Source: a virus. Taken from it: a stretch of 20,939 nt of DNA. The DNA lies in IMG/VR virus record IMGVR_UViG_3300044815_000065, positions 1-20,939 of that record, one strand, 5' to 3'. The position numbers and the translations under genes were made by a program. The notes under the pieces are model-generated. The model was not told where the DNA came from. It saw only the letters and a list, made by a program, of their open reading frames with translations, and did no database searches. This document shows, one piece after another, positions 1,909-20,807 of the stretch (its first letter is position 1; every line of letters begins with the position of its first letter).

Positions 1909-2850
1909 ATGAACAAAGAAATTCTGGATTATATTGCCGCTCTTTCGAAGACCGATAAGAAAACCCTCTCCCAGAAAGCACTGAAGACGGCCGAGGAAGT
2001 CGGCGAACTTGCCAAGGTGATCCTGCCGTTCGACGGCGCTGCCACCTCTTCCCACCGGTTCGTGGCGACTACCCGCATCCTCGAAGAAGTGGCGGACACC
2101 GTTCTGTGCGCTCTGAGCGTGGCCTACAGCCTTGGTTTCACCCATGACGATATCAGCGCATGGATGCTCCAGAAAGCCAAGTACTGGGACGAAATCCAGA
2201 ACCGCGAAGGCAACATCAGCTACCCTCTGCCTTACGAAATCCACCTAACGGTCTCCGGCGCCCGTGGGCTGAACATCGATCAGTTCAAGATCGATTGCGC
2301 CAAGCTCGCAGTTAAACCTCTGCTGATCGACCTTCACAATCGTCAGGGCGAGACGATCATGTTTGATGCCCAGACCTCCAGCGTTCACATGGGCGACAAC
2401 AGCAGCGCCTACCTCGAAATGAGCCGGGTCAATTCCGGCATGATCGAACTCGGATACGAAGTCGTTCGCCAGAAAATCGAAACCGTTCCGTGGCATCCAG
2501 CCGCGCCTTCCTCGACACACAGCCGCCCGGAGATGCCGAAGAACTGTTACTTCGAAGCCCACTTCAACATCGTCGTGGACGATGAACGGATGGTGAGGCT
2601 ACGGGCAGCGGCCAAGTTCCTCGGAGCCCACTTGTCGCGAAATGCTTTCAAGAAAATCAGCGACACCGACTACATCATGATGTTGACGTATCGTGAATAC
2701 GACGATCCCTTCGAGCATTTCCAATCAAAATGCGACTTCATCGTCGGTCACTTGACCGGCTTGGGTTTCGATGTCCCGAAGACCATCACGGAATTCTCCA
2801 TCTACGACACTAAAGTGTCCCATGATGCAGCTTGGTTGGTGAGCAAATGA
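1909..2850 (+). CDS. MazG-like NTP pyrophosphohydrolase domain fused to an unknown C-terminal region
   Basis: The protein has 313 residues. The first ~95 form a MazG-type all-alpha NTP pyrophosphatase: the EEVGE motif (E30, E33) and EEVAD (E60, D63) match the ExxE...ExxD metal-binding signature. Such enzymes hydrolyse (d)NTPs to monophosphates; phage MazG proteins have been linked to (p)ppGpp or nucleotide-pool control, but substrates vary. Residues ~108-313 are not part of MazG. They hold two blocks, each opening with a strand of the form Y/F-E-x-H (YEIHLTV near 109 and YFEAHF near 214), with a KIETVPWHP motif between. I recall similar segments in other viral proteins but cannot name a function. 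It sits between two short genes and overlaps the next start by ATGA. Confidence 0.75.
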   Translation: MNKEILDYIAALSKTDKKTLSQKALKTAEEVGELAKVILPFDGAATSSHRFVATTRILEEVADTVLCALSVAYSLGFTHDDISAWMLQKAKYWDEIQNREGNISYPLPYEIHLTVSGARGLNIDQFKIDCAKLAVKPLLIDLHNRQGETIMFDAQTSSVHMGDNSSAYLEMSRVNSGMIELGYEVVRQKIETVPWHPAAPSSTHSRPEMPKNCYFEAHFNIVVDDERMVRLRAAAKFLGAHLSRNAFKKISDTDYIMMLTYREYDDPFEHFQSKCDFIVGHLTGLGFDVPKTITEFSIYDTKVSHDAAWLVSK

Positions 2851-3332
2851 CCCAAGAACTCGAAATCGGGCAAGAATACGAAATCAATCTCTACGCAGGA
2901 GATGATTTTCGAACGGTAGCTTTTACCGCGCGTTACATGGGCGACGGACAATGGAACACGTTTGGTGATGACTGGACGTTTCCTATTCATCCCGCGCATG
3001 ATCCACGCCCGGCTCTTGCGTCTGACAACGTTCTTCTCCCAGAAAAGAATTTTGACGTGATGTCACCACCGATGTCTTCCGAATGGGGTACCTCGGAATT
3101 GGTTGACGAAAACGTTGAATTCGGCGTAAAACTCTTCGAGCCGACGCATCGCCATGTCGGGCGCAGCGGCCTCGGTAATCAGGGCCTCTACGAAGTGATC
3201 GCCGAAGGGTACCTTCAGGTGTCTGATGCGCAATGGGATGAAGCTTCGGTGACCATCTACCGAGGCGCAGACGGCAAATGGTGGGTCCGTCCCACCGAAG
3301 AATTCAACGACGGCCGCTTCGAAGCCGTCTGA
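2847..3332 (+). CDS. DUF1653-like domain protein (161 aa)
   Basis: I chose the ATG at 2847, which overlaps the preceding TGA (ATGA); an earlier in-frame start at 2832 would only add five residues. Residues ~98-158 fit a DUF1653-type fold: an EPTHRHVG opening, LYEVIAEGYL, then VTIYRGADGKWWVRP and a final F-x-G-R-F. DUF1653 proteins are small, common in bacteria and phages, and have no assigned activity. The N-terminal ~90 residues (YEINLYAGDD...) are unrecognised. The ribosome-binding site of serS follows directly after the stop, so the two genes are probably on one mRNA. Confidence 0.6.
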   Translation: MTQELEIGQEYEINLYAGDDFRTVAFTARYMGDGQWNTFGDDWTFPIHPAHDPRPALASDNVLLPEKNFDVMSPPMSSEWGTSELVDENVEFGVKLFEPTHRHVGRSGLGNQGLYEVIAEGYLQVSDAQWDEASVTIYRGADGKWWVRPTEEFNDGRFEAV

Positions 3333-3344
3333 TCAGGTTTGAAC

Positions 3345-4640
3345 ATGCTCGATCTTAAGTACGTCCGCGACAACGTCCAAGCGGTCATCAGCGAACTTGG
3401 GCGCAAGGGGGTGTCCCACAGCGAAGCGTCGAGCATCGTTCAAAACCTCGTCGATCTCGATGCGCGCCACCGCAACGCCATCCAGCGCACCCAGACGCTG
3501 CTGACCGAGCGCAACGAGGAATCGTCGAGGATCGCCACCCTCTCCGGCATCGACCGCCAGAACGCCATCGCAGGCATGGGCCAGATCAAAGCCCTGATCG
3601 TCGAGTCCACGACGGACGAACGCGAGTACGAACAACTCGTGGCCGTGGCCCAAAGGCGTATCCCGAACCTTCTGGCCTTGGGCGTTCCGCTCGGGAGCGA
3701 CGAAAGCCACAACCGGGAAATCTACCGGACCATGTCGGTTCGGACAGCAACCATGAATTTCGAGCCAAAGGATCACGTCGAACTCGGCGAAGCTTTGGGC
3801 ATGATGGACTTCGAAAGCGCCGCGAAGATCAGCGGATCGCGCTTCGTCGTGACCAAGGGTCCGTTGGCCCGCATGGAACGGGCTCTGGGCCAGTTCATGA
3901 TGGACCTGCACGTCAATTTCCACGGCTTCACCGAGGTCAATCCCCCACTGATCGTCAACACCAAATCTCTGGTCGGCACGGGTCAGCTTCCGAAATTCGA
4001 GGACGATCTGTATCGCCTCGACACCGATTCGGTGGACGGCCAATGGCTGATCCCGACCGCCGAAGTGTCGATCACCAACCTCGTGCGCGAAAGCATCATC
4101 CCGGAAGATCAACTTCCTCTGCGCTACGTGGCCTTGACCCCATGTTTCCGGGCTGAAGCCGGGAGCGCTGGGCGCGACACGCGCGGCATGATCCGCCAGC
4201 ACCAATTCTACAAGGTGGAACTGGTCTCGATCACGTCCGCCGATCACGCCGAGGACGAACAGGAAAACATCCGCATGTGCGCCCAAGCCGTGCTGGATTC
4301 CTTCGGTCTCGCCTATCGCACGGTCCTGCTGTGCGGAGGGGACACCGGCTTCTCGGCCGCCAAGACCTATGATATCGAAGTCTGGCTCCCCAGCCAGAAA
4401 ACGTTCCGCGAAATCTCCAGCATCTCGGACTTCGGTGACTTCCAAGCCCGGCGAATGGAAGCCCGCTACAAGCCAAAGAGTGGCAAGCCACGCTTCGTCA
4501 AGACCTACAACGGTTCTGGCGTGGCGGTCGGCCGAATGCTCGTGGCGATCATGGAGAACTTCCAAAACGAGGACGGCTCGATCACGGTCCCATATGCTCT
4601 GCGACCGTACATGAACGGCCTTGAGGTCATCACCAAATGA
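3345..4640 (+). CDS. serS: Seryl-tRNA synthetase, full length (431 aa)
   Basis: This charges tRNA-Ser with serine in the cytoplasm. The ATG at 3345 follows AGG at 7-base spacing and gives the usual SerRS opening MLDLKYVRDN; a TTG two codons upstream is less likely. Residues ~25-105 are the helical tRNA-binding arm, followed by RIPN and VPLGSDE. The catalytic core shows the serine-pocket TAE (238-240), class II motif 2 (FRAEAGSAGRDTRG, 268-281), GFSAAKTYDIEVWLP (335-349), REISS...DFQARR (355-370) and motif 3 (GSGVAVGRMLVAIMENFQ, 390-407). Length and motif order match bacterial SerRS. Departures from the usual sequence are SSIS for SSCS, GDTG for GDMG and TYNGSG for TLNGSG. No active-site residue appears lost. 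The next gene overlaps the stop (ATGA). SerRS genes are rare in phages. No tRNA gene was seen in the window. Confidence 0.93.
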   Translation: MLDLKYVRDNVQAVISELGRKGVSHSEASSIVQNLVDLDARHRNAIQRTQTLLTERNEESSRIATLSGIDRQNAIAGMGQIKALIVESTTDEREYEQLVAVAQRRIPNLLALGVPLGSDESHNREIYRTMSVRTATMNFEPKDHVELGEALGMMDFESAAKISGSRFVVTKGPLARMERALGQFMMDLHVNFHGFTEVNPPLIVNTKSLVGTGQLPKFEDDLYRLDTDSVDGQWLIPTAEVSITNLVRESIIPEDQLPLRYVALTPCFRAEAGSAGRDTRGMIRQHQFYKVELVSITSADHAEDEQENIRMCAQAVLDSFGLAYRTVLLCGGDTGFSAAKTYDIEVWLPSQKTFREISSISDFGDFQARRMEARYKPKSGKPRFVKTYNGSGVAVGRMLVAIMENFQNEDGSITVPYALRPYMNGLEVITK

Positions 4641-4915
4641 AACGGGTCGAGACTGACCAAGAACGCCACCGGCGTTTCGACTGGTATTGGGAACTCGGCG
4701 TGTTCGCCATCCCGTTTCTGTGGATGCCTCCGGCCATGTTTTTGATTCGCCGGTATGTCTATGTTCCGATGGATCAGATGAACCTCATGATGGGAACCAT
4801 TCTGCTGTTTTTCGGATGGATGGGAGTTGGATGCTCTCTCCGGGTCAATAATCTGAACAAAGAGATAGCTCGCATGAAGCGCGAGAACGAGGAAGACGAG
4901 AATGAGCATCATTAA
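4637..4915 (+). CDS. Small membrane protein (92 aa, two TM segments)
   Basis: The start overlaps the serS stop as ATGA. The protein has a charged N-terminus (KRVETDQERHRR), a hydrophobic segment at about residues 20-37 (ELGVFAIPFLWMPPAMFL), a second at about 49-67 (LMMGTILLFFGWMGVGCSL), and a very charged tail (KEIARMKRENEEDENEHH). This suggests a two-span inner-membrane protein with both ends on one side. No family is recognised. The next gene, also a two-span protein, overlaps by 14 bases, so the pair may act together. Confidence 0.65.
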   Translation: MKRVETDQERHRRFDWYWELGVFAIPFLWMPPAMFLIRRYVYVPMDQMNLMMGTILLFFGWMGVGCSLRVNNLNKEIARMKRENEEDENEHH

Positions 4916-5210
4916 ATTCCACAACCGGTTGAACTCCAAGCTGATCGGGTCGGTTCTGGATTACAAGCTCGCGGCCGAACCCAATTACAAGAGTATCATG
5001 ATCGCTGGAGGATTGATCACTTTCCTCCCGGTGCTCGTCCCATTCGTACTGATGGTTCTGTGGCAGGCGGATGCAAATGCGTTCATTCGGGTCGCATTGA
5101 TCGGCTTGATTATGATCTTTTGGGGCCAGATGAATGGCTACCTCTATCGGTCGTGGTGGCGCGCCGAGATGGTCAAGAAATACCCGGATTTGCATTATTT
5201 GTTCCAATAG
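4902..5210 (+). CDS. Small membrane protein (102 aa, two TM segments)
   Basis: The ATG lies inside the end of the previous gene, and a GAGGAAGACGAG stretch upstream can serve as ribosome-binding site. Hydrophobic segments are at about residues 31-53 (IMIAGGLITFLPVLVPFVLM) and 62-77 (IRVALIGLIMIFWGQM). The C-terminus is basic and aromatic (YLYRSWWRAEMVKKYPDL). It looks like a partner of the preceding protein. The last 38 bases overlap the convergent HNH gene on the other strand. No function can be assigned; holin-like or envelope-modifying roles are only possibilities. Confidence 0.65.
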   Translation: MSIIKFHNRLNSKLIGSVLDYKLAAEPNYKSIMIAGGLITFLPVLVPFVLMVLWQADANAFIRVALIGLIMIFWGQMNGYLYRSWWRAEMVKKYPDLHYLFQ

Positions 5211-5721
5211 CTCGGATAAGATCGATCAGTGCGATGACTGAATTATCGCTCTTATTGTTCTTTGCATAGTTCAATGCACAGGATACAAATTGGACGTTTC
5301 CTTCAACGTATCCAAGTGATGAATCCTTGCGATCGAGGGATGCTTGCGTATTGATGTCTCCACGGGTTTTTAGGTTGAGTGGTATTCCCGACCAAACACA
5401 CTGACCGTCTTGGATATTCCACAAAGAACTAAGATAATCCGTAGTGATGTCTACATCCGAATGGCGCTGTCTCGCAGTCCGTACAAATCTTGAAAATGGG
5501 GATTTGTTTGCAGATCGCCGTGTATTGTGTTCAATCAAACGATTGCGATTTTCGGTTGAATGTTTCCATGGTGTGAAATTGCTTTTAACGGTCACTGACC
5601 CCCAACATGACCGAGAGCAATAGAATACTGAGTGGCCAAGTTTCACTCTTCTAGTGTGTTCTTTCAAAGGCTTTGTGAATTCAGCGGAACATTGCCCGCA
5701 TACGAGAGTGATGGTTTGCAT
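5173..5721 (-). CDS. HNH-family homing-endonuclease-like protein (182 aa)
   Basis: A free-standing endonuclease of a type common in large phages. The N-terminus has a zinc-finger-like cysteine set (C8, C11, C35, C39). The C-terminal half shows the family pattern QDGQCVWSGIPL (105-115), ASLDRKDSSLGYVEGNVQ (127-144) and a late NYAKNNKS. Such proteins cut DNA and promote spread of their own gene. It is AT-richer than its neighbours, lies against the local transcription direction, and overlaps the end of the membrane-protein gene by 38 bases, all signs of insertion. I used the ATG at 5721; a GTG one codon earlier is possible. There is no Shine-Dalgarno sequence; a GATAAATA late-type motif lies only four bases before the ATG. 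Confidence 0.8.
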   Translation of the reverse strand: MQTITLVCGQCSAEFTKPLKEHTRRVKLGHSVFYCSRSCWGSVTVKSNFTPWKHSTENRNRLIEHNTRRSANKSPFSRFVRTARQRHSDVDITTDYLSSLWNIQDGQCVWSGIPLNLKTRGDINTQASLDRKDSSLGYVEGNVQFVSCALNYAKNNKSDNSVIALIDLIRAIGTNNANPGIS

Positions 5722-5725
5722 CACT

Positions 5726-5733
5726 TATTTATC
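5726..5733 (-). promoter_or_regulatory. Late-promoter-like motif GATAAATA before the first HNH gene
   Basis: Read on the minus strand this is GATAAATA, one base off the T4 late consensus TATAAATA. It ends 4 bases before the ATG of the HNH gene, so a transcript starting at the usual distance would carry almost no leader. The identical octamer precedes the SleB gene at nearly the same distance. Confidence 0.45.
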
Positions 5734-5792
5734 GTGGAGACGATAGGTTAATTTTGGTGGAATTAATTATTGCGCAAAAAACAAATTCATGC

Positions 5793-5799
5793 GTAAATA
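5793..5799 (+). promoter_or_regulatory. Late-promoter-like motif GTAAATA in the 5725-6118 gap
   Basis: A TAAATA core in the AT-rich start of this gap, on the plus strand. No gene starts directly behind it (the next ATG is followed by a stop), but it could drive transcription toward the gene at 6119. It is the weakest member of the motif set. The rest of 5725-5824 is AT-rich and I see nothing else in it. Confidence 0.25.
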
Positions 5800-5824
5800 A
5801 GAATGTAATTGTTGACCTGAGTTT

Positions 5825-6082
5825 CTACCCGAGCCAGACCCGAATTGCGATGTTCGGCGCCTCCACCACAAACGCCCGCGCCTCCACCATGCGGACGTTT
5901 GTCATTGGGGGCGAATTAGTATCGATGGGCGGCGAACGACGAAGCGAGATTTCCGGTAAGAAACGACCGTCAATCAGTTCAAATTTGTAATTGTCAACGA
6001 CAACGTTGCCATGGATTATGCTATCGCTGCGTAAGCAGTGATTGTTTCCGGGGTAGGGAGCCGGGTCTTCGGACTTAGCCTG
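5825..6082 (-). pseudogene. Startless 85-codon open frame, possible gene remnant
   Basis: On the minus strand an open frame runs from just after a TGA at 6083-6085 to a TAG at 5825-5827. The translation looks protein-like: HGNVVVDNYKFELIDGRFLP in the middle and VEARAFVVEAPNIAIRVWLG at the end, with third positions rich in G and C. No ATG, GTG or TTG exists before residue 60, so only a 26-residue piece (from MTNVRM) could start normally. It may be the 3' end of a gene that lost its front, next to the HNH insertion; it could also start from a rare codon. A competing plus-strand frame (5754-5990, TTG start) is also open, so the coding strand is uncertain. Confidence 0.35.
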
Positions 6083-6098
6083 TCAACAGAAAGCTCCC
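6056..6098 (+). ncRNA. Possible three-way-junction RNA in the leader of the 6119 gene
   Basis: GGGAGC (6056-6061) pairs with GCTCCC (6093-6098). Inside are a UUCG-capped hairpin (6063-6067 with 6072-6076, two G-U pairs) and a small CTG/CAG hairpin with a UCAA loop (6080-6089). The element ends 20 bases before the ATG at 6119. It might be a leader regulatory structure or an mRNA 5'-end stabiliser. It matches no riboswitch class I know, and the pairing was found by eye only. Confidence 0.35.
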
Positions 6099-6118
6099 AC
6101 TTTCCTTAGGATTTTTCG

Positions 6119-6520
6119 ATGAAATATTTGCAATCCGACACCATCTTCTCCTTCCTCAAGGAGGATGGGACGCGTATCTGTGTCGTTCCAGTGGATGGCG
6201 AGGTTCATTACAACGATGTCGGCTTCAGCGCTGGCTTCGTTCATTTCGCCGATCCGGAAACCGGCCTGAAACTCGGGTTCTGTGGCATCGACCGTTTCGA
6301 GACAAATGCCGATGAAACCGGAGGCTATGAAGGCCTCTACAGCGATCTCTTCGACATTGACGAAGTCACCCCACTCTCCGGCGTTCTGAACGACCAAGCC
6401 CTCACCGACCTTGCCAAGCATTTCAAGGGAATGCTCCCCAGCAGCACGGGTATTCCCCAACTCGGTCTCCTTCTCATCCATGAATTGAGAGAGACGAGAA
6501 AGGCCCTCGAAAAGGCCTGA
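6119..6520 (+). CDS. Hypothetical phage protein (133 aa)
   Basis: The ATG at 6119 is preceded by TTAGGA at 7-base spacing, a good ribosome-binding site. The protein is acidic with a beta-rich first half (YLQSDTIFSFLKEDGTRICV, VHYNDVGFSAGFVHFADPET) and a helical second half ending in a charged helix (HELRETRKALEKA). Four to five short strands followed by a helix suggest a compact globular protein. No family is recognised. It lies between a structured leader and the fibre cassette but has a separate leader from the fibre genes, so it need not be structural. Confidence 0.65.
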   Translation: MKYLQSDTIFSFLKEDGTRICVVPVDGEVHYNDVGFSAGFVHFADPETGLKLGFCGIDRFETNADETGGYEGLYSDLFDIDEVTPLSGVLNDQALTDLAKHFKGMLPSSTGIPQLGLLLIHELRETRKALEKA

Positions 6521-6571
6521 TACTTAATGTCCGGCCATAAGTGCTAGGACCGTTAAGCTATGTGAGAACAT

Positions 6572-6610
6572 CCCAAGTAATGCCCTAAATAGCCTAGGCA
6601 TTTTCTTGGG
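6572..6610 (+). promoter_or_regulatory. Hairpin with late-type motif in its loop, overlapping the RBS of the 607-aa gene
   Basis: CCCAAG (6572-6577) pairs with CTTGGG (6605-6610), and AATGCC (6579-6584) pairs with GGCATT (6597-6602), leaving a 12-base loop. The loop holds CTAAATA (6585-6591), a late-promoter-like motif. The last GGG of the stem is also the start of the GGGAGA ribosome-binding site for the ATG at 6621. Long read-through transcripts could therefore fold and hide the site, while a transcript started at CTAAATA would lack the left arm. The remainder of 6521-6571 shows nothing convincing. Confidence 0.5.
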
Positions 6611-6620
6611 AGAATTGCAT

Positions 6621-8444
6621 ATGGCTGAAATTAAAAACTTTGGGATTTCTGGCGTTGGTACCAACGTTCAACTCGGCAAGGCTGGTCCTCGCCTGAAGGT
6701 GAACGCAGGTACGGTCGAAGCCCGGAATGCGGCGGACGATAGTCTTGCCGTCATTCGTGCGGCGAACGCTGTTACGGACAACGATGTTGTCACGCTCGCC
6801 CAACTCAACACCTCTGTCGCCAACGCTGGTGTCGCGGACGGTTTCCATCTGAAGATGGGCAACGTCGTGACGGACGGCGATGGTTCTTGGCTTCCGGGCG
6901 CGATCACGATCACTGACGACTCCAAAATGTCGGATGTCGTTGACAAGATGAACACGGTCCTCGGTCTTCTGACCCCGCCGAGCCCACCGGCGTTCCCTAA
7001 CGCCAACGCCCTAACCGTTTCCAACACCTCGGGTAGCACTCCTGTGCTGTCCAACGGCGTTACGGACAATAGCGGCGGCGGCTCTGGCTACACGCCGGGC
7101 AGCGCGGTCACCCGCGTCATCACCACCGTCAACTCCAACGCCTTCAACGACATGGGTCCGGGCAACTCTGGCACGGTCCAACTGCTGATCAACGGCACGC
7201 TCGTCGGTTCCAAGGCCCTCACGGGTACGGGAGACGCTTCGACGACCAACGGTCTGGTCATCGCTGACCAAAAGGATTTCCCGGTCGCAACGCCGGGCTT
7301 CTGGAAGTCGGTTGATATCTCAGTCGCTGCTGGCGCCGATCTGACCGGCATCAACAAATTCAAGCTGAACCACACAGGTGCTGGTGCAACCAGCGATGTG
7401 TACTTTGTTCGTGACACCGTCACGGCTGTTCCGGCGGTCACTACCGTTTCGCTGGCGCAAGCCAACGCCGGTACGCTGGCCTATTCGTCGAGCGTACCGC
7501 ACTACGGAACGGGCGCATCGCTGACGGCGGGTCTGTCGATCAGCAACCTCGCTGGCCAGACCTACTATGGCGGCGCCGACCCGCTGGTGATCTCGGGAAC
7601 GAACTCGATCTTCTCGGCCGCAACCTACACCTACTCGAACATGGGTCTCACCACGCCGTTCGCCGCCAACACGACGACTGCGCAGGCGATTTCGGCGGTC
7701 ACCATCACGGTGAACGGTACCACCCACGGCTCTGGCACGGTTTCGGCCATCGCCAAGAACGTCAACGGTTCGAGCACGTCTACGGCTCTGACGGCTCAGG
7801 TGGTTCTGGTCAAGAACGGAACGGCTGCTGCGGCCAAGGTTGATGAACTGTCCATCCCGGTTTCGGGACTGGGTAGCTCTCCGAACGCCTTGAATGCTAT
7901 CCGCGTTAACAAGGGCTCGGGCGACACGCCGAACACGGCGGTGACCGCTTGGTCCAACACCAACACGCTGACCAGCTACGACGCTGCGGTCGTCGCCGGT
8001 GTCCTGACCTGCAACAACACCGATTACTCGACCGGCGCATTCCTCCCGATTGGTCCTAACCTCTCGGGTCGTGGAACGGCTCAGTACGCCACGTTCTCGT
8101 TCAAGCGTACTGCTCTGTCGCAGTTCAAGATCGTCGTCACCGGCTCCTATGCTGGTTGCTGGATCAGCCTGCCGAACATCTCGGACAACGCGGGTGTCAG
8201 CCCGAACGCTCTGGGTGGTGCTTGGTGGAACGCGTTCCAACCCTACGACGGCGCCGGTCTCCCCGGCGAAACCGGCGACACGGTTGCGGGCTGCGCTTCG
8301 GGCACGGTCATGAATGGCGCGAGCGGAACGTTCTCGATCACGTTTGGTACGGCTTCGTCCACCAGCGCGACCGGCAACGAAATTCTCGTTCGTTTCCGTC
8401 TGAACACCGGACAGTCCATCACCGCTCTCAGCTTTACGAACTAA
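6621..8444 (+). CDS. Virion structural / tail-fibre-like protein (607 aa)
   Basis: I chose the ATG at 6621 behind GGGAGAATTGCAT; an upstream TTG lies inside the hairpin. The first ~65 residues (AEIKNFGISGVGTNVQLGK..., then VTLAQLNTSV) match the N-terminal attachment segment of T4-like cyanophage fibre proteins and of the 1038-aa protein encoded at the far right of this window. The long middle is Thr/Ser/Gly/Asn-rich beta-structure. The C-terminal region (GAWWNAFQPYDGAGLPGETG, CASGTVMNGASGTFSITFG, NEILVRFRLNTGQSITALS) resembles a conserved marine T4-like virion domain. It probably trimerises in the tail or capsid and contacts the cell surface. The next gene follows after 15 bases, so both form one late transcript. 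Exact location in the particle is unknown. Confidence 0.8.
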   Translation: MAEIKNFGISGVGTNVQLGKAGPRLKVNAGTVEARNAADDSLAVIRAANAVTDNDVVTLAQLNTSVANAGVADGFHLKMGNVVTDGDGSWLPGAITITDDSKMSDVVDKMNTVLGLLTPPSPPAFPNANALTVSNTSGSTPVLSNGVTDNSGGGSGYTPGSAVTRVITTVNSNAFNDMGPGNSGTVQLLINGTLVGSKALTGTGDASTTNGLVIADQKDFPVATPGFWKSVDISVAAGADLTGINKFKLNHTGAGATSDVYFVRDTVTAVPAVTTVSLAQANAGTLAYSSSVPHYGTGASLTAGLSISNLAGQTYYGGADPLVISGTNSIFSAATYTYSNMGLTTPFAANTTTAQAISAVTITVNGTTHGSGTVSAIAKNVNGSSTSTALTAQVVLVKNGTAAAAKVDELSIPVSGLGSSPNALNAIRVNKGSGDTPNTAVTAWSNTNTLTSYDAAVVAGVLTCNNTDYSTGAFLPIGPNLSGRGTAQYATFSFKRTALSQFKIVVTGSYAGCWISLPNISDNAGVSPNALGGAWWNAFQPYDGAGLPGETGDTVAGCASGTVMNGASGTFSITFGTASSTSATGNEILVRFRLNTGQSITALSFTN

Positions 8445-14010: not shown

Positions 14011-14580
14011 TTAGCGGGCGGCTCGGGTCTTCCCGAACATGGCCACCATGTCATTGCTGGTGATGCTGACGTAGCGGTCAGCTTGGCGGCGCAGGTCTTC
14101 GGAAACTTGGGTGTCTTCCGAGATGATGGTCACGCGCACGCCACAGTCCTGCACGGCCGCGACCAGCGGGGCGAAATCGCCGTCGCCCGAGAACAGCAGG
14201 ATGTGATCGACCTTGCCGCCGTAGGCCGCTTTCAGCATGGCGATGGCGATTTCCATGTCCATGCTGTTCTTGACGCGACGCTGGCCTTCACGGTTGGTGA
14301 ATTCCTGCGCGGGCTTGGTGTGCATCACGAAGCCGTTGAAGCTCAGCCAATCGACGAGCTTCATCGCTGGAGCGTAGTCGTTCGCGTCGCTGGCCACGGC
14401 GGTGAAATAGTTGGTGCGGACGTACTTGCAGACATCGTCCGTTTCGAAGTGCTGGATCAGCAGCTTCCAGTCGAAGTCCTTTTCGGTGCGCTTGACCGAA
14501 TTGTAGAAATTCGGGCCGTCGATGAAAATCATCACGCGTTCCGAGAACGCTACCCCAAAGGGGGAAACCACATGCGTCAT
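14011..14580 (-). CDS. NYN/LabA-type (PIN-like) RNase (189 aa)
   Basis: The frame is open further upstream, but the ATG at 14580 has GGAG at 5-base spacing and gives the expected domain start. The fold is a NYN (PIN-like) nuclease: VMIFIDGPNFY with D21, NSMDMEIAIAML with D108, and ILLFSGDGDFAPLV with D133 and D135. These acidic residues bind metal for RNA cleavage. Family members (LabA, DUF88) are common in bacteria and are putative RNases. In a phage it may degrade host RNA or act against a defence; this is inference. It follows the SleB gene after a 73-base gap and ends at a strong terminator. Confidence 0.85.
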   Translation of the reverse strand: MTHVVSPFGVAFSERVMIFIDGPNFYNSVKRTEKDFDWKLLIQHFETDDVCKYVRTNYFTAVASDANDYAPAMKLVDWLSFNGFVMHTKPAQEFTNREGQRRVKNSMDMEIAIAMLKAAYGGKVDHILLFSGDGDFAPLVAAVQDCGVRVTIISEDTQVSEDLRRQADRYVSITSNDMVAMFGKTRAAR

Positions 14581-14631
14581 AATTGCTCCAGAATGTATCG
14601 CGGCTATCTGCCGCCGTATCGCAAACTGGAA

Positions 14632-15314: not shown

Positions 15315-16700
15315 TTACAGCTTTTCACCCGGAACAGTTCCTCGGAAACCCTTGAATCGTGGGAAACGAAGCGAATAGTTGTTGGTTCCGATATTGTCAC
15401 CTTCCTGCGAAAAAGCATCGGCCCTGACTTCGACGATCATGCCCATCACGAGCGATTGATCTTCCCAGAATTCCCGAACCTGTTTGTCGGTGAAACCGCC
15501 TCCGACATTGACCTTGATGAACTTGCCATCGTCCTCGCCTTCGCAGACCAAGGCGCCGAGCAAACCCTTTCGCTTGCCTTCTTCCTTACCAATGTCGACT
15601 CCGACCACGGTCAGACTGACTTCGATGAACGGCTTGACCTTCAGCCACGAGGCGGTTCGACGGGTCACGTAGGGTGCCAGCGGGTCCTTGACCATGATGC
15701 CTTCGTAACCGGCCTCGACGGTCGTCTTGTTGAACTCGGCAAAAGTCTTCTGACCGTCATCGGTGTCCAGATCGACCAGCAACTTAGGAATCACGTAGAC
15801 CAGACCGTTGGTGATCTGGAAATGACCCTGCTCCTGCATTTCCACCAAGAATCCGTGGCGTTCTTCCTGTGTCTTATCGCACTTACCCTCGAAGAAATCC
15901 TTCTTGGGAACGATGTCGAACACCGCCAGCCGGGCGAGGCTGGTGTCCACGTCAGAGCGACGGTTGACCTGACGCATCAGGTCTTGGAAACTTTTGGAAA
16001 CGACCTCCCCGTCGAGAACCATCGACACCGGGATAACGTCCAGCAACGGGGTGAGCGCGGTGGTGATCTCGGTGAAATTCTCGTTGGGCTTGCCCTCGCG
16101 AGTGTACTGGATGACGCGACCGAGTTCCTTATCCAGAACCGTCAGCAGGCGCACGCCGTCGAGCTTGGCATCCAGCAGCTTGCGACCGGCAACCTTCTTG
16201 GTGTGAGCCGGATCGGAGCCGTCCTTGGCCAGTTGGCACGAGAACACGTAGGTCAGGAGCGCATGGGCCTGCGCAGCCCAAGCCGAATGTTCCTCGACAA
16301 TCTTTAGTAGAACCTTGTTGGTCGTGGACACGTCCACACCGCACTTCAGGTCTTTCAGCAAGATGCGACGGAAGAAACCATTCCACTCGGCGATGTTGCT
16401 GTTGTCAGCCGCTTCAATCAGGGCATCCCGCGCGGCGTGTCCGGTCAGTTGCCTAGTTTCCAGCTTGCTTGCCAGTTCGACTAGGTTGTCGAAGTTGAAA
16501 GAGAACGGACCTTCGTCCGTTTCGTCGTCTTCGATGTATGGAGCTTTCTTGATCCCGTAGGTGATCATCTTGTCGAATGCCATTCGGGCTCCGAGGAAGA
16601 ACGTTCGTTCTCCGGAGAGGAAGGCTTCAGTCAGGATTTTTTCTTTTTCGAGACGAGAATTCGTCGCCTCAAGGGCGTAGATAATATCGATCGTGGACAA
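15315..16700 (-). CDS. ATP-dependent DNA ligase, T4 gp30-type (461 aa)
   Basis: This seals nicks using ATP during phage replication and repair. An N-terminal helical domain (about 1-170) precedes the nucleotidyltransferase core: motif I KLDGVR (179-184; K179 is the AMP-accepting lysine), LDGEVV (motif III, 229-234), VFDIV (260-264), EGIMVKDP (motif IV, 333-340) and WLKVKP (motif V, 352-357). The C-terminal OB-fold includes GALVCEGEDDGKFIKVNVGG and ends with LRFPRFKGFR. Length is near T4 ligase (487 aa). It starts with TTG, and AAGG lies 7 bases before it; the start is only two bases beyond the stop of the upstream membrane-protein gene, so the two are coupled. Confidence 0.92.
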   Translation of the reverse strand: MSTIDIIYALEATNSRLEKEKILTEAFLSGERTFFLGARMAFDKMITYGIKKAPYIEDDETDEGPFSFNFDNLVELASKLETRQLTGHAARDALIEAADNSNIAEWNGFFRRILLKDLKCGVDVSTTNKVLLKIVEEHSAWAAQAHALLTYVFSCQLAKDGSDPAHTKKVAGRKLLDAKLDGVRLLTVLDKELGRVIQYTREGKPNENFTEITTALTPLLDVIPVSMVLDGEVVSKSFQDLMRQVNRRSDVDTSLARLAVFDIVPKKDFFEGKCDKTQEERHGFLVEMQEQGHFQITNGLVYVIPKLLVDLDTDDGQKTFAEFNKTTVEAGYEGIMVKDPLAPYVTRRTASWLKVKPFIEVSLTVVGVDIGKEEGKRKGLLGALVCEGEDDGKFIKVNVGGGFTDKQVREFWEDQSLVMGMIVEVRADAFSQEGDNIGTNNYSLRFPRFKGFRGTVPGEKL

Positions 16701-16702
16701 TG

Positions 16703-16906
16703 TTATGCCTTGTAAAAGGCAACCACTCTACTCATCCAATTGAATACGGACTTGGTAAGAGAAATTGCGAAAAAAATGGGCCAGAGAAGGGCTCCGGGAA
16801 TAGTCCTCTGCGGGCAGTCTTCAATGAAGACTTCCCCGTGCGCTAGCTTGTAGTGAGCCCACAATGCAACTCCTACAACCAGCCAGATGACAAATGCCAC
16901 GGCCAT
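16703..16906 (-). CDS. Small membrane protein (67 aa)
   Basis: The first ~19 residues (AVAFVIWLVVGVALWAHYK) and a later stretch (PGALLWPIFFAISLTKSVF, about 37-55) are hydrophobic, with a charged loop (HGEVFIEDCPQRT) between and a basic tail. This suggests a two-span membrane protein. The ribosome-binding site is weak. It lies directly upstream of the ligase gene, whose ribosome-binding site lies in its last codons. No function can be given. Confidence 0.6.
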   Translation of the reverse strand: MAVAFVIWLVVGVALWAHYKLAHGEVFIEDCPQRTIPGALLWPIFFAISLTKSVFNWMSRVVAFYKA

Positions 16907-16947: not shown

Positions 16948-17577
16948 TCAGCCCTTACGCAGCAGATTCATGATACTTTCCAATTCACTCTTGGAGATAA
17001 CCGTGTACCCCTGATCGTTTAGGAGGTCCAAGAGTCCTTGTGGTTGATCGTAATCAACCGTCTTGTACTTATCCGGAAGCTCGTGCCATTGGCGCAAAAG
17101 CGGATGAGTCTTGTTGCTAATGCTGACCGTCAGTCCATAACGCCATCCACCATCGGTGCGTTCCTTGAACCAATCATCATGCTGTTTCTTCGCCCACGCG
17201 GTGCATAGCTCGGTGAAACTGTGGTCCTTGATCTCAATGGACGGGAGGTCCATCGCATTATTGGCCTGAGCCGACGACACCTCAATATCGAAATCAACGT
17301 CGGGGTTTTTCTTCGTGAAATGCTCGACCATCGGCTCAATCTCAACATCTGTCATGTCGCGTGTCAGCGGAATGATGTATTCAAATCCATCCGTGGTCTG
17401 ACGACATACCATAGATGCACTGCGGCGGCCGGTATCATCGGTGGTTTGGCAAGTCGTCATAATGCCATTAGGGAGCATATCCTTGGCGGCTTTGAACCAT
17501 GCAGACACTGTTTCGTTCGGAAGCTCTTTCCCGACGACGAGTTTTGCATAACGTTGGATGTTGACTGGTTCGTTCAT
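16948..17577 (-). CDS. RyR-domain protein (209 aa)
   Basis: Residues ~124-193 match the RyR domain first named in ryanodine receptors and also found in bacteria and phages. The matching parts are LCTAWAKKQHDDWFKERTDG, GGWRYG (143-148), KTHPLLRQWHELPDKYK (156-172), then a final LLDLLNDQGYTV helix-strand. The ligand in prokaryotes is unknown; a nucleotide-derived small molecule has been proposed for related defence proteins. The N-terminal ~110 residues are unrecognised. I chose the ATG at 17577, 5 bases after GGTGG; an ATG one codon earlier and GTG or TTG just upstream also exist. The CTAAATA motif lies about 23 bases before the start, a normal late-promoter layout. Confidence 0.75.
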   Translation of the reverse strand: MNEPVNIQRYAKLVVGKELPNETVSAWFKAAKDMLPNGIMTTCQTTDDTGRRSASMVCRQTTDGFEYIIPLTRDMTDVEIEPMVEHFTKKNPDVDFDIEVSSAQANNAMDLPSIEIKDHSFTELCTAWAKKQHDDWFKERTDGGWRYGLTVSISNKTHPLLRQWHELPDKYKTVDYDQPQGLLDLLNDQGYTVISKSELESIMNLLRKG

Positions 17578-17599
17578 CATTTCCACCAAATTTCACAAA

Positions 17600-17606
17600 T
17601 ATTTAG
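17600..17606 (-). promoter_or_regulatory. Late-promoter-like motif CTAAATA before the RyR gene
   Basis: On the minus strand CTAAATA is followed by about 22 bases containing GGTGG and then the ATG. This copy has a spacing that allows a normal leader and ribosome-binding site, which supports a promoter role for the motif set. Confidence 0.5.
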
Positions 17607-17690: not shown

Positions 17691-20600
17691 TTAGGCCGCC
17701 ATGTACTCGACATAGACCTTGGCCGAGCCAGTGCCCGAAACCGCGCCAGCGATGGTAGCTTGGATCGTTCCATCGACGTAGTCCTTGGCCGTATCCACAA
17801 TGTAGATACCAGCAGAGCCTTCATCGATATCATTCGCGCCAGCCAGTTCGTTGGACGTACCTTCAGCCGAACCAACCGTGATCGTGACACCCGAGTTGAA
17901 GGCGCCGGTGATCAGCACACGAATGCGCAGAACCGTTCCGGTGACTTCGTCGAGGGTAACCGCGCCGTTGGTTTCAGTCAGGGTCGCAACGATGGTCTTG
18001 ACGTGACCGACTTCGGCGGCGGCGATTGCCGTGCCGAGTTGGCCGAGATTGACCGCGTCAGTCGAAGCAACAGCGTTACCCACGAACAGGACGCGAGCGT
18101 TCGAGACGCTGACGTTGCCGAGGCCCTTAGGAGCCCAGACGAGGTCGAGGTTCGAACCCGTGCCGTCAACACCGAACTCAACCGAGTTCGTGCCGTTGGT
18201 GACCGTAGCGAAGGCCGTAGCGTTCGCATCGCCATAGAACTTGGCGATAGCCGTGCCGTCTTCGGCGCCGACCGTGATTTCGTCCGACAGCAGGAGCAGA
18301 GCGCCGCCGCCGAAACCACCAGCAACGGTCATCGAGTAACCGTCGTCGGCTTGGATCACACCAACGCCGGTCTCACCGATGATGACGTGGCCGCTACCTT
18401 GACCAACCAGTCGCAGATCAACATCCGTACCCAGACCCGTAGCGCGCAGAGCGATCTCACCAGCCACGCCAGCGTCGATAGCCAGCTTGGAGTCGGTGTC
18501 GTCAGTGGAAACAACGGTCAGGACCGTGGTCGCCGTGCCAGCAACGTCGAGCTTGGTTTCGATCAGTTGAGCAGCAACGTGAACCGAGTTCAGGTTATCT
18601 TCGGTACGGATCGTGTCTTGCGACAGGTTCGCGACCGAGTTGGCCAGATCGAACAGAGCCGTGTCGAGCAGGTTGTCAGCACCCTTCAGCGACGTGGCGT
18701 TGGCGATGTAATGCGCCGTGGCGTTCGCAGTATAGGTACCGTCCGCGCCGAGACCCGCGCCCAGTTCGATGGCGTTGATTTCGGTAGCGGCATTGCCAAC
18801 AGTCGAAGACAGAGCGACAACAGTGTTCGACAGCGTGGAGACATTGGCGTTCGTGTTGGCTACCGTGCTCGTCAGAGCGACAACAGTGTTCGACAGGGTC
18901 GAAACGTTAGCGTTCGTGTTGGCAAGATTGGCGGCGGCAGCGACTACGGTGTTCGACAGCGTGGAGACATTCGCGTTCACAAGATCAACGCGACCCGACA
19001 GGATAACAACATTGGCGTTCGTGTTAGCGATATTAGCGGCCAGAGCAGCGTCGCCGTCCGCGCGGTCGATGATTTCGTCTGCCAGATCAGCAGCGACATC
19101 AGCAATAGCGTTAGCGTAGTCAGCGGTTTCCAGAGCATCGACGCGAGCCGTCAGAGTGACGGCATTGGCGTTGGTGTTGGCGATGTCAGCAGCCAGAGCC
19201 GTGTCAGCAGCTTCCAGATCGGACACAGCGTCGGCGAGGTCCGAAGCGACGTTCGCAACCGAGTTGGCGACCAGAGCGGTAGCAGCAGCGGCAGCGTTAG
19301 CAGCGTTCGTGACTTCCAGTTGACGAGCAGCGGTATAGGCTCCGTCGATGGAGACGGTGTAACCAGTGTCAACCGTACCGGCAACGTCGATTTCGCCAGC
19401 GGTACCGGCGACGGTCGAGTCGGTGTTGTCGATCTTGTCGATGGTTCCAGCGTTGTTCCAGACCAGACCATCATTGGCGTTGTAGAAGATAGCGTCTTCG
19501 GTATTGTCACCAGCGGTGAACCAACCAGCAACCGTGATCTTGTAGTAATCGCCCGGATTCTTGCCATCAGCCGCAAGTTCACGAACGTCGATAGCGCTCG
19601 CCGCGTCGATGCCATCAGTACCGTCCAGAACGCCAACGTAGTTGAAGGCGTTACCCAGAGCGGCAACCTTGGCTTCGACCCACTGCATGTTGGCAGCGTC
19701 GGTGTCGAGAACCGGGTCAGAAACGTTGTGGATGACGTTGTTGCCCATGTTCAGAGCACCGGTCATCGCAACCGAACCGTTCTTCAGAACAGCGTTGGCG
19801 GTCAGAGCAGCCAGATCGTCGGCGACATCAACGATGGCGTTGGAGTTCAGCGAGTCGGCAGCAACGCGAGCGTTGGTTTCGGCCAGCAGATCAGCAGCAA
19901 CATCAGCGATAGCGTTGGAGTTCAGCGAGTCGGCAGCAACGCGAGCGTTACCTTCATCCGACAGGTCTTGCGTGAGTTCGGCGATAGCCGCGCCGTAGTC
20001 AGCAGCTTCCAGATCATCAACTCGACCCGTCAGGGTGACGACGTTGGCTTCCAGTTCAACGACCGAGTTCGTCAGGCCGCCCGTGGTGGCTTCGACAGCA
20101 TCAACGCGAGCCGACAGAGTGACGACGTTGGCGTTAGTGTTGGCGACGTTCAGAGCAGCTTGGTTGGCTGTAGCATTGGCAATAGCCGAGGCAGCAACTG
20201 CGTTCGCAGCGGACGAAGCAACAGTGCCGATGGCGCCGTCGAGAGTTTCGACCGCACCGACGAGGTCCGTAGCGTTGGCCAGATAGTTACCAGCGGCGAG
20301 GGTCAGCGTACCGTCCGGAGCCAGACCGACCGAAGTCTCAACCTGATCAAGTTCCGACTGGGCAGCGATAGCGTTGGCAGCGGCATTGGCCACGTCCGAA
20401 GCCAGAACCGAGTCAGCGAGGACACGAGCATCGACTTCAGCCTTCAGGCCGGTGTCGAGCAGAGATTCGGCGTTGAACAGAGACGTAGCATTGCCCAGAT
20501 AGTTCGATCCGACCGGGGCAGTGTAGGAACCGTCAACGCCGAGACCGGCGCCGAGTTCGATAGCATTGAGTTCGGCCAGAATAGCAGCCGTGTTCGACGC

Positions 20601-20807
20601 GACGTTCGCGACAGCGTTTGAAAGCTGTCCGAACGTGACGGCATCGCCCGCATTAGTACCTTCCGCGATTTGGAAGCGAACGAAGGCATTGCCCGCCGCA
20701 TTCTTAGCCGCGAACGTGCCTTCGGTCTGGGTGAGGCGTGCGCCGCCCTTACCAAACTGCACATCAGTACCAACACCGACCATACCGAAATTTTTGATAT
20801 TAGCCAT
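17691..20807 (-). CDS. Long tail-fibre-like protein (1038 aa)
   Basis: The N-terminus (ANIKNFGMVGVGTDVQFGKG) is homologous to that of the 607-aa protein and to T4-like cyanophage fibre proteins, and is probably the particle-attachment segment. Then follow three copies of a ~42-residue GL-x-x-DG-T-Y...NATSL unit (78-120, 152-192, 675-717), long Ala/Asn/Val coiled-coil-like heptads (ANTNANV...), and a fibre motif MTGALNMGNNVIHNVSDP (348-365) ending in DAANMQWVEAKV. A beta domain lies at ~385-500, and a beta-rich region (~760-910) precedes GQLGTAIA. The last ~80 residues (ITVGSAEGTSNELAGANDID to VYVEY) resemble the C-terminus of the 359-aa protein. The ATG has AGGAGA upstream in a leader similar to that of the 607-aa gene. 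It likely forms a trimeric receptor-binding fibre. Confidence 0.85.
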   Translation of the reverse strand: MANIKNFGMVGVGTDVQFGKGGARLTQTEGTFAAKNAAGNAFVRFQIAEGTNAGDAVTFGQLSNAVANVASNTAAILAELNAIELGAGLGVDGSYTAPVGSNYLGNATSLFNAESLLDTGLKAEVDARVLADSVLASDVANAAANAIAAQSELDQVETSVGLAPDGTLTLAAGNYLANATDLVGAVETLDGAIGTVASSAANAVAASAIANATANQAALNVANTNANVVTLSARVDAVEATTGGLTNSVVELEANVVTLTGRVDDLEAADYGAAIAELTQDLSDEGNARVAADSLNSNAIADVAADLLAETNARVAADSLNSNAIVDVADDLAALTANAVLKNGSVAMTGALNMGNNVIHNVSDPVLDTDAANMQWVEAKVAALGNAFNYVGVLDGTDGIDAASAIDVRELAADGKNPGDYYKITVAGWFTAGDNTEDAIFYNANDGLVWNNAGTIDKIDNTDSTVAGTAGEIDVAGTVDTGYTVSIDGAYTAARQLEVTNAANAAAAATALVANSVANVASDLADAVSDLEAADTALAADIANTNANAVTLTARVDALETADYANAIADVAADLADEIIDRADGDAALAANIANTNANVVILSGRVDLVNANVSTLSNTVVAAAANLANTNANVSTLSNTVVALTSTVANTNANVSTLSNTVVALSSTVGNAATEINAIELGAGLGADGTYTANATAHYIANATSLKGADNLLDTALFDLANSVANLSQDTIRTEDNLNSVHVAAQLIETKLDVAGTATTVLTVVSTDDTDSKLAIDAGVAGEIALRATGLGTDVDLRLVGQGSGHVIIGETGVGVIQADDGYSMTVAGGFGGGALLLLSDEITVGAEDGTAIAKFYGDANATAFATVTNGTNSVEFGVDGTGSNLDLVWAPKGLGNVSVSNARVLFVGNAVASTDAVNLGQLGTAIAAAEVGHVKTIVATLTETNGAVTLDEVTGTVLRIRVLITGAFNSGVTITVGSAEGTSNELAGANDIDEGSAGIYIVDTAKDYVDGTIQATIAGAVSGTGSAKVYVEYMAA
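18795..18986 (-). repeat. Tandem 21-codon repeats in the fibre gene
   Basis: Three consecutive copies of a unit reading ANTNANVSTLSNTVVAL plus STV-like residues, about 63 bp each, with close DNA identity (GTGTTCGACAG recurs on the plus strand). This is typical of fibre-shaft coiled-coil growth by repeat duplication; copy number could change by slippage. Confidence 0.7.
19809..19949 (-). repeat. Two-copy 75-bp repeat in the fibre gene
   Basis: The segment NARVAADSLNSNAI-x-DVA-x-DL occurs twice, 75 bp apart (residues 287-308 and 312-333), nearly identical at DNA level, including GAGTTCAGCGAGTCGGCAGC on the plus strand. It indicates recent duplication in the shaft. Confidence 0.7.

Follow-up and report, generated by a model that had tools for sequence, protein, structure and literature searches.

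A two-domain RyR protein kept at a late-type locus of jumbo phages, a candidate sponge for ADP-ribose-type signals

The first report of function for a phage RyR domain that we found in the open literature searched is a preprint of 29 May 2026, in which phage RyR proteins cleave (one protein) or bind 2'/3'cADPR (PMC13232231). The cleaving protein, RyDEP (gp78 of Mycobacterium phage DyoEdafos), has H75 and D117 as its catalytic pair, stacks W78 on the adenine, and holds the phosphates with H100 (PMC13232231); we checked these residue letters on the gp78 sequence (MN234187.1). Out of eight other phage RyR homologs, six bound 2'/3'cADPR and two did not, none cleaved the signals despite the conserved residues, and both sponge types tried in vivo let phages evade Thoeris (PMC13232231). 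The RyDEP family is not defined there by placement in a NARP1 operon; such placement holds for DyoEdafos and for Salmonella phage Mansal (L006, positions 4299 to 7798), where an RyDEP-type RyR gene is followed immediately by the genes for PRPP synthetase and nicotinate phosphoribosyltransferase, a NARP1-like set of three that DyoEdafos also has. Some RyR-like genes carry the labels "Anti-CRISPR protein" or "alanyl-tRNA synthetase" (Pseudomonas phage vB_PaeP-D14S [L010], positions 2836 to 3708, and Pseudomonas phages MK511039 to MK511051). Otherwise, we met passing mentions of RyR, and no description of a two-domain jumbo-phage RyR family was found in the open literature searched.

Here, we report on such a two-domain protein, encoded on the minus strand within a virus record of 20,939 bases, the whole of which is called the window below.

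Domains, fold, and predicted ligand pocket

The original prediction, made from the letters of the window, had described an RyR domain fused to an unknown N-terminus of 110 residues and had proposed structure prediction as a check; both the domain and the N-terminal extension hold up. The open reading frame is present (Table 1), and its C-terminal part matches Pfam PF02026 (48 bits against a gathering cut-off of 27.4; E value, 1.5e-12), with a best E value of 3.1e-17 in a sequence search against solved RyR domains (ryanodine receptor and Bacteroides). NCBIfam returned nothing useful for this protein, nor did PADLOC, whose models describe defense rather than anti-defense.

AlphaFold, run with a 14-sequence alignment, predicted two separate domains (residues 8 to 101, then RyR from about residue 118; mean pLDDT, 78.8; pTM, 0.46) joined by a low-confidence linker (residues 103 to 115 of the full-length model). 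The modeled RyR domain matched 3nrt, 4n05, and 6uag (Z, 8.4; 3.4 to 4.0 Å; 84 to 86 residues) and human RyR3 Repeat12 (Z, 7.2 to 7.6, the latter at 3.5 Å over 90 residues), and some of the fold-matching RyR structures were solved with ATP or AMP-PCP. The N-terminal domain is kept in all 14 aligned family members and, modeled alone, is predicted to fold separately as a ferredoxin-like unit (mean pLDDT, 87; pTM, 0.79). In the PDB, it matches generic folds of the ferredoxin-like kind (aspartokinase ACT, TUTase, ribosomal S6, and PII-like; maximum Z, 7.0 to 7.2); because Z was at most 7.2 and no row stood out, an assignment of function from structure was dropped. A second, degenerate RyR repeat was ruled out for this domain by its predicted fold. 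A 98-amino-acid (aa) phage protein, A0A6J5TBS3, resembles a stand-alone copy of the N-terminal domain (E value, 2.5e-4).

All four RyDEP pocket positions are matched by alignment in the window protein. H133 and W136 occur in 14/14 members of the family alignment, and H158 and D175 each occur in 13/14. The H158 position is Ser in Agrobacterium phage Atu_ph07 and in Sinorhizobium phage Phosso (the latter outside the 14-member alignment), and the D175 position is Asn in the closest relative, on contig L012. The stretch before the H..W motif (RyDEP Q54, N-terminal helix) is not reliably alignable to the window protein. Judged from sequence, the window pocket likely binds an ADPR-like adenine ligand.

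A tree of 30 RyR domains (79 columns, with several long branches and low inner support on the side of the window) placed the 12 RyDEP-type phage domains, RyDEP included, on one side of a branch with support of 100/99, and 13 rows of the window family on the other, together with Bacteroides, fecal phage, and RyR3 repeats. The window protein thus carries the RyDEP pocket but lies outside the RyDEP phage clade as sampled, and the split is strong.

Table 1. Features at and around the RyR gene in the window
Feature	Position	Strand	Basis
RyR-domain protein gene, 209 aa	16948..17577	-	ATG start, translation; Pfam PF02026; 14-member alignment
N-terminal domain, about residues 8-101, beta-alpha-beta...-alpha-beta, predicted ferredoxin-like	17275..17556	-	AlphaFold models
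RyR (PF02026) domain, residues 108-193	16999..17256	-	Pfam; fold matches to 3nrt/6uag/RyR3 Repeat12
Predicted ligand pocket: H133 (17179-17181), W136, H158, D175 (17053-17055)	17053..17181	-	Alignments; equivalent to RyDEP H75, W78, H100, D117
CTAAATAT, late-promoter-like motif upstream of RyR gene	17599..17606	-	Same motif before the L012/L016 orthologue
1038-aa repetitive protein, upstream neighbor, tail-fiber-like by position and composition	17691..20807	-	Weak PHROG matches only
67-aa ORF, predicted membrane protein, between the RyR and ligase genes	16703..16906	-	Similar ORFs in L012, L013, L017 by eye
ATP-dependent DNA ligase, 461 aa, downstream neighbor	15315..16700	-	PF01068 (E 2.5e-16); PHROG 114 (E 6.9e-86); synteny

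Relatives, locus, and late-type motif

The closest relatives lie on uncultured phage contigs, many of them jumbo-sized: L012 (63% identity; 578 kb), L017 (55%; 52 kb), L013 (53%; 415 kb), L001 (48%; 39.8 kb), and L019 (41%; 457 kb), with a partial match on L021 (51%; 23 kb). The phage origin supposed for the window fits both its source in a virus record and these relatives, on contigs of up to 415 to 578 kb. Relatives of 33 to 36% identity occur on five contigs of 159 to 465 kb and on three shorter ones, and two isolates carry one, Phosso (32%) and Atu_ph07 (29%). A distant relative in Salicola phage SCTP-2 has 21 to 23% identity with most of the length covered. Five records were searched for RyR, with one match in each. 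Among bacterial and archaeal genomes (one per species), 79 stretches matched in a search for cellular homologs with the same two-domain layout, and none was confirmed.

Down to 28% identity, the RyR gene keeps a fixed late locus in jumbo phages. A long fiber-like gene lies upstream in most of 15 loci, and the upstream protein starts in the same way as in the window (MANIKNFG...) in L016 (the L012 locus), L017, L018, and L019. The 67-aa membrane ORF that follows RyR in the window gave no match in Pfam or NCBIfam. A ligase-sized gene follows RyR in 14/15 loci, the exception being L019. The ligase is ATP dependent in the window and L012 (Pfam) and NAD dependent in L025 and Atu_ph07 (tested), with calls in the remaining loci resting on length, position, or record annotation; read in this way, the cofactor class switches (ATP type in the window, L012, and L013; NAD type in L025 and L003) while the RyR gene stays. 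A free ORF of about 133 aa beside the NAD-type ligase matches the N-terminal domain of the ATP-type ligases of the window, L012, and L013 (hmmsearch; E values, 1e-26 to 2e-32), as seen in L025 (8605 to 9006), L002 (15609 to 16025), and L003 (15642 to 16055) and also in L020, L027, and L028. From these sequences, the ligase appears to have been swapped in place for one of the other cofactor class, with one domain left behind.

Of the 14 loci that extend far enough upstream, 9 carry a gene for a holin-like membrane protein directly before RyR. The two genes overlap by as much as 26 nucleotides (nt) or stand as much as 12 nt apart, and in six cases the junction measures 1 nt. PHROG holin matches were obtained in L019, L020, and L028 (E values, 6e-5 to 1e-3), with PF11351 below its cut-off; the match is weaker in Atu_ph07 and Phosso and weak for L002 and L003. 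No holin-like gene separates fiber and RyR in the window and L012. In SCTP-2, by annotation, the RyR relative lies elsewhere and has neither a holin-like nor a ligase neighbor. A 154-aa ORF takes the holin place in L013 (5540 to 6004; L018, 7540 to 8004), where it overlaps the RyR start by 4 nt and contains a VYHGT motif that, by eye, we take to recall ADP-ribosyltransferases. An ADP-ribosyltransferase identity was not retained, as it rested on that motif and found no support in Pfam, PHROG, NCBIfam, or PDB. L017 matches only the last 22 residues of this ORF.

The gene had been placed under a late-type motif, and this motif is confirmed: CTAAATAT ends 21 nt short of the RyR start codon, and its TAAATA begins 28 nt ahead of the ATG. 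TAAATA occurs eight times in the window, and six of the sites lie within 80 nt upstream of a gene start on the same strand (binomial P, 1.9e-7, for 23 gene starts and an 80-nt limit that were chosen after the sites had been seen), preceding the RyR gene, the fiber-like gene, and a cell-wall hydrolase, among others. For upstream placement, it came first out of 15 hexamers of the same composition. The form CTAAATA is given as a late promoter of the T4-like phage Aeh1 (PMC1524935). TAAATA precedes the RyR gene or the gene just upstream in 14/14 loci, several of which are close relatives. In five of them (L020, L025, L026, L002, and L003), the site coincides with or falls within what looks by eye like a terminator hairpin, and it is there no more than a candidate promoter. 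The RyR gene is probably transcribed late, as far as the motif tells. Conserved co-occurrence with structural genes, which the original prediction had counted, together with a lack of ligand binding, against its own proposal if such genes were the only neighbors, is found in part; the neighboring DNA ligase is not structural.

A gene of the nicotinate/nicotinamide phosphoribosyltransferase (NAPRTase) family was found in 9 of 12 related records and in 9 of the 10 that exceed 150 kb; the three records without it are a 415-kb contig and two short fragments. NAD-salvage genes do not lie beside the RyR gene in any related record where they were found. In the L012 phage, the NAPRTase-family gene adjoins ORFs resembling nicotinamidase and an NMN adenylyltransferase/Nudix protein (by eye), and in Phosso it lies near annotated NMN adenylyltransferase and NAD synthetase genes. 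In a survey from 2022, 33% of jumbo phages had NadV (PMC9503650); the excess over this figure is not an independent count here, the records searched being related to each other. No NARP1-type genes lie beside RyR in the window or the related loci, and the PRPP synthetase family PF14572 (NARP1) was found in one of nine related records; a NARP1 partnership is not supported, with no adjoining pair and this single record. In the same number of related records, Tad2 was found in none and a Macro domain in two.

Elsewhere in the window, there is a phage-encoded tmRNA (5766 to 6101, plus strand; Rfam alpha_tmRNA, 102.5 bits, overlapping a permuted tmRNA match of 100.9 bits), where ARAGORN reports none; a tmRNA has been reported for a related jumbo phage of Sinorhizobium (PMC11242549). 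About 1.1 kb before it lies a seryl-tRNA synthetase gene (3339 to 4640, plus strand; Pfam E value, 1.4e-38). A 313-aa protein (1909 to 2850, plus strand) has a weak MazG-like N-terminus and a PADLOC AbiEi match over residues 108 to 310 (E value, 3.4e-31). An NYN-domain nuclease-like protein (14011 to 14613, minus strand; Pfam E value, 1.4e-30) has a similar place, by eye, in L012, L013, L017, and L001.

Possible functions of the RyR protein

We tentatively favor, at slightly less than an even chance, a late-expressed sponge for an ADPR-type ligand, the job of which would be to sequester NAD-derived immune signals (Thoeris-type 2'/3'cADPR). The C-terminal RyR domain (Repeat12-like family) would bind an adenine-nucleotide-type ligand via H133, W136, H158, and D175, with ADP-ribose, cyclic ADP-ribose isomers, or ATP/NAD-like molecules as candidates. 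The N-terminal ferredoxin-like domain would likely be a partner-binding or multimerization module, and the signal would be sequestered late in infection or by RyR protein carried over in the virion. The fold matches, the near-invariant pocket residues, the late-type motif, and the NAPRTase-family genes of related phages count in favor of this reading. Of the possible uses, sequestration of Thoeris-type signals has the best support, since other phage RyR domains have been shown to serve in this way; hydrolysis is less likely because 8/8 other phage homologs do not cleave (PMC13232231). The original prediction had allowed for either a sponge for a host signal or another role. Its first half gains from the sponges shown among other phage RyR proteins (PMC13232231) and from the four contact residues kept here; the subtype, the extra N-terminal domain, and the fixed late locus set this protein apart from the tested enzyme and allow for the second.

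Anti-defense genes do not usually hold their place across so deep a divergence, and this counts against sequestration. So do the placement of the domain outside the RyDEP-type clade (12 rows, 100/99), the Ser and Asn replacements at the H158 and D175 positions in Atu_ph07, Phosso, and L012, and the lack of a NARP1-type pair, of Tad2 in the related records, and of any PADLOC match among its defense models. Two of the eight tested homologs, moreover, are nonbinding (PMC13232231). It is mainly the late, fixed locus that suggests a different or additional role; the protein might be a sponge carried in the virion, or a sensor acting on a late partner.

Carriage in the virion was considered from gene position in Atu_ph07, in which 131 virion proteins were found, most of them encoded in CDS 31 to 76, 170 to 215, and 284 to 329 (PMC6102473). 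The RyR gene comes out as gp284 when annotated genes are counted between the landmarks gp266 (glutaredoxin), gp288 (tail fiber), and gp303 (NUDIX), the numbers of which agree with that paper (PMC6102473), and it therefore lies at the edge of the third cluster. The edge may be drawn rather than observed, because all three clusters span exactly 46 CDS, a possible artifact that also weakens sequestration by virion-borne protein. The position of the gene is thus suggestive at most of a virion link. Elsewhere, a Stenotrophomonas phage has an RyR gene between two neck genes (PMC9025141), and the 2022 survey, in which RyR is not mentioned, makes the case that myovirus virions often contain proteins that handle ADPr (PMC9503650).

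A late lysis- or virion-associated nucleotide sensor is rather unlikely in our estimate and is the strongest competitor to the sponge. RyR would read the ATP, ADP-ribose, or NAD state, with no immune signal involved, and the N-terminal domain would couple it to a late partner, e.g., the adjoining holin-like protein or a virion component. The holin-like gene directly upstream in 9/14 loci, with its PHROG matches in L020, L019, and L028, speaks for such coupling, as do the late-type motif upstream of RyR or the preceding gene in all 14 loci, the virion-cluster edge in Atu_ph07, and the neck-gene placement in the Stenotrophomonas phage. The holin-like gene, however, is missing from that place in the window and L012, is replaced by a different, ART-like gene in L013, and has weak holin matches in L002 and L003, and the SCTP-2 relative lies elsewhere.

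In a broader proposal, which we regard as speculative and distinctly improbable, a jumbo-phage lineage would keep a canonical, animal/Bacteroides-type RyR as a core late gene and package its product in the particle. Each newly infected cell would then be supplied at DNA entry, before phage gene expression, with a preformed sponge or reader of cADPR signals; where the locus includes a holin-like gene, this nucleotide sensing might adjust lysis as well.

It is very unlikely that the protein is an RyDEP-like glycosidase converting 2'/3'cADPR to ADPR and feeding phage NAD salvage. The catalytic residues of RyDEP, H75 and D117, are kept as H133 and D175, and most related genomes have NAD-salvage genes, but conservation went with no cleavage in the other homologs tested (PMC13232231), the closest relative has Asn at the D175 position, and the window subtype is not of the RyDEP clade. 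Least probable of all is a nucleotide sensor or partner of the neighboring phage DNA ligase, for although RyR stays beside a ligase-sized gene in nearly all loci while the cofactor class switches, L019 and SCTP-2 keep the RyR protein without an adjoining ligase, phage gene order can persist without contact between products, and the late motif precedes the RyR gene, whereas the ligase has a replication function.

With this family, one could ask whether cyclic ADP-ribose isomers are also ligands of the animal/Bacteroides-type pocket. Within the tree sample, its members are the nearest phage counterparts of the nucleotide site in ryanodine receptors, and the answer would bear on the long-standing question of cADPR action at these receptors. 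The late, structural neighborhood of the gene offers a specific test of virion-delivered anti-signal proteins.

Comparison with known systems

The window protein shares with RyDEP and the sponge homologs (PMC13232231) the PF02026 domain, the equivalents of H75, W78, H100, and D117, a phage origin, and NAD genes in related genomes. It differs from RyDEP in that its domain groups with Bacteroides and animal RyR domains, in its extra N-terminal ferredoxin-like domain, and in having no adjoining NARP1 pair; its gene also has a late-type motif, whereas activity in DyoEdafos is early to mid (PMC13232231).

The putative RyR protein of Bacteroides thetaiotaomicron (3nrt, 6uag, 4n05) is of the same subtype and is the best fold match (25 to 28% identity; Foldseek), but it is a single domain of about 100 aa, not from a phage, and lacks the N-terminal domain. 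Animal RyR Repeat12 (RyR3 6uhh with ATP; 9ls7 and 9l91 with AMP-PCP) has the same fold and pocket residues, in tandem repeats within a calcium channel, whereas the phage protein has 209 aa and no channel. The Thoeris sponges Tad1 and Tad2 have folds that differ from RyR; if the window protein binds cADPR isomers, it would act in the way they do.

Atu_ph07 gp284 and the Phosso RyR protein are full-length relatives that include the N-terminal domain and the locus. They differ from the window protein in having Ser for H158 and an NAD-dependent ligase after RyR (Pfam-tested for Atu_ph07), with the detached ATP-ligase N-domain ORF in between.
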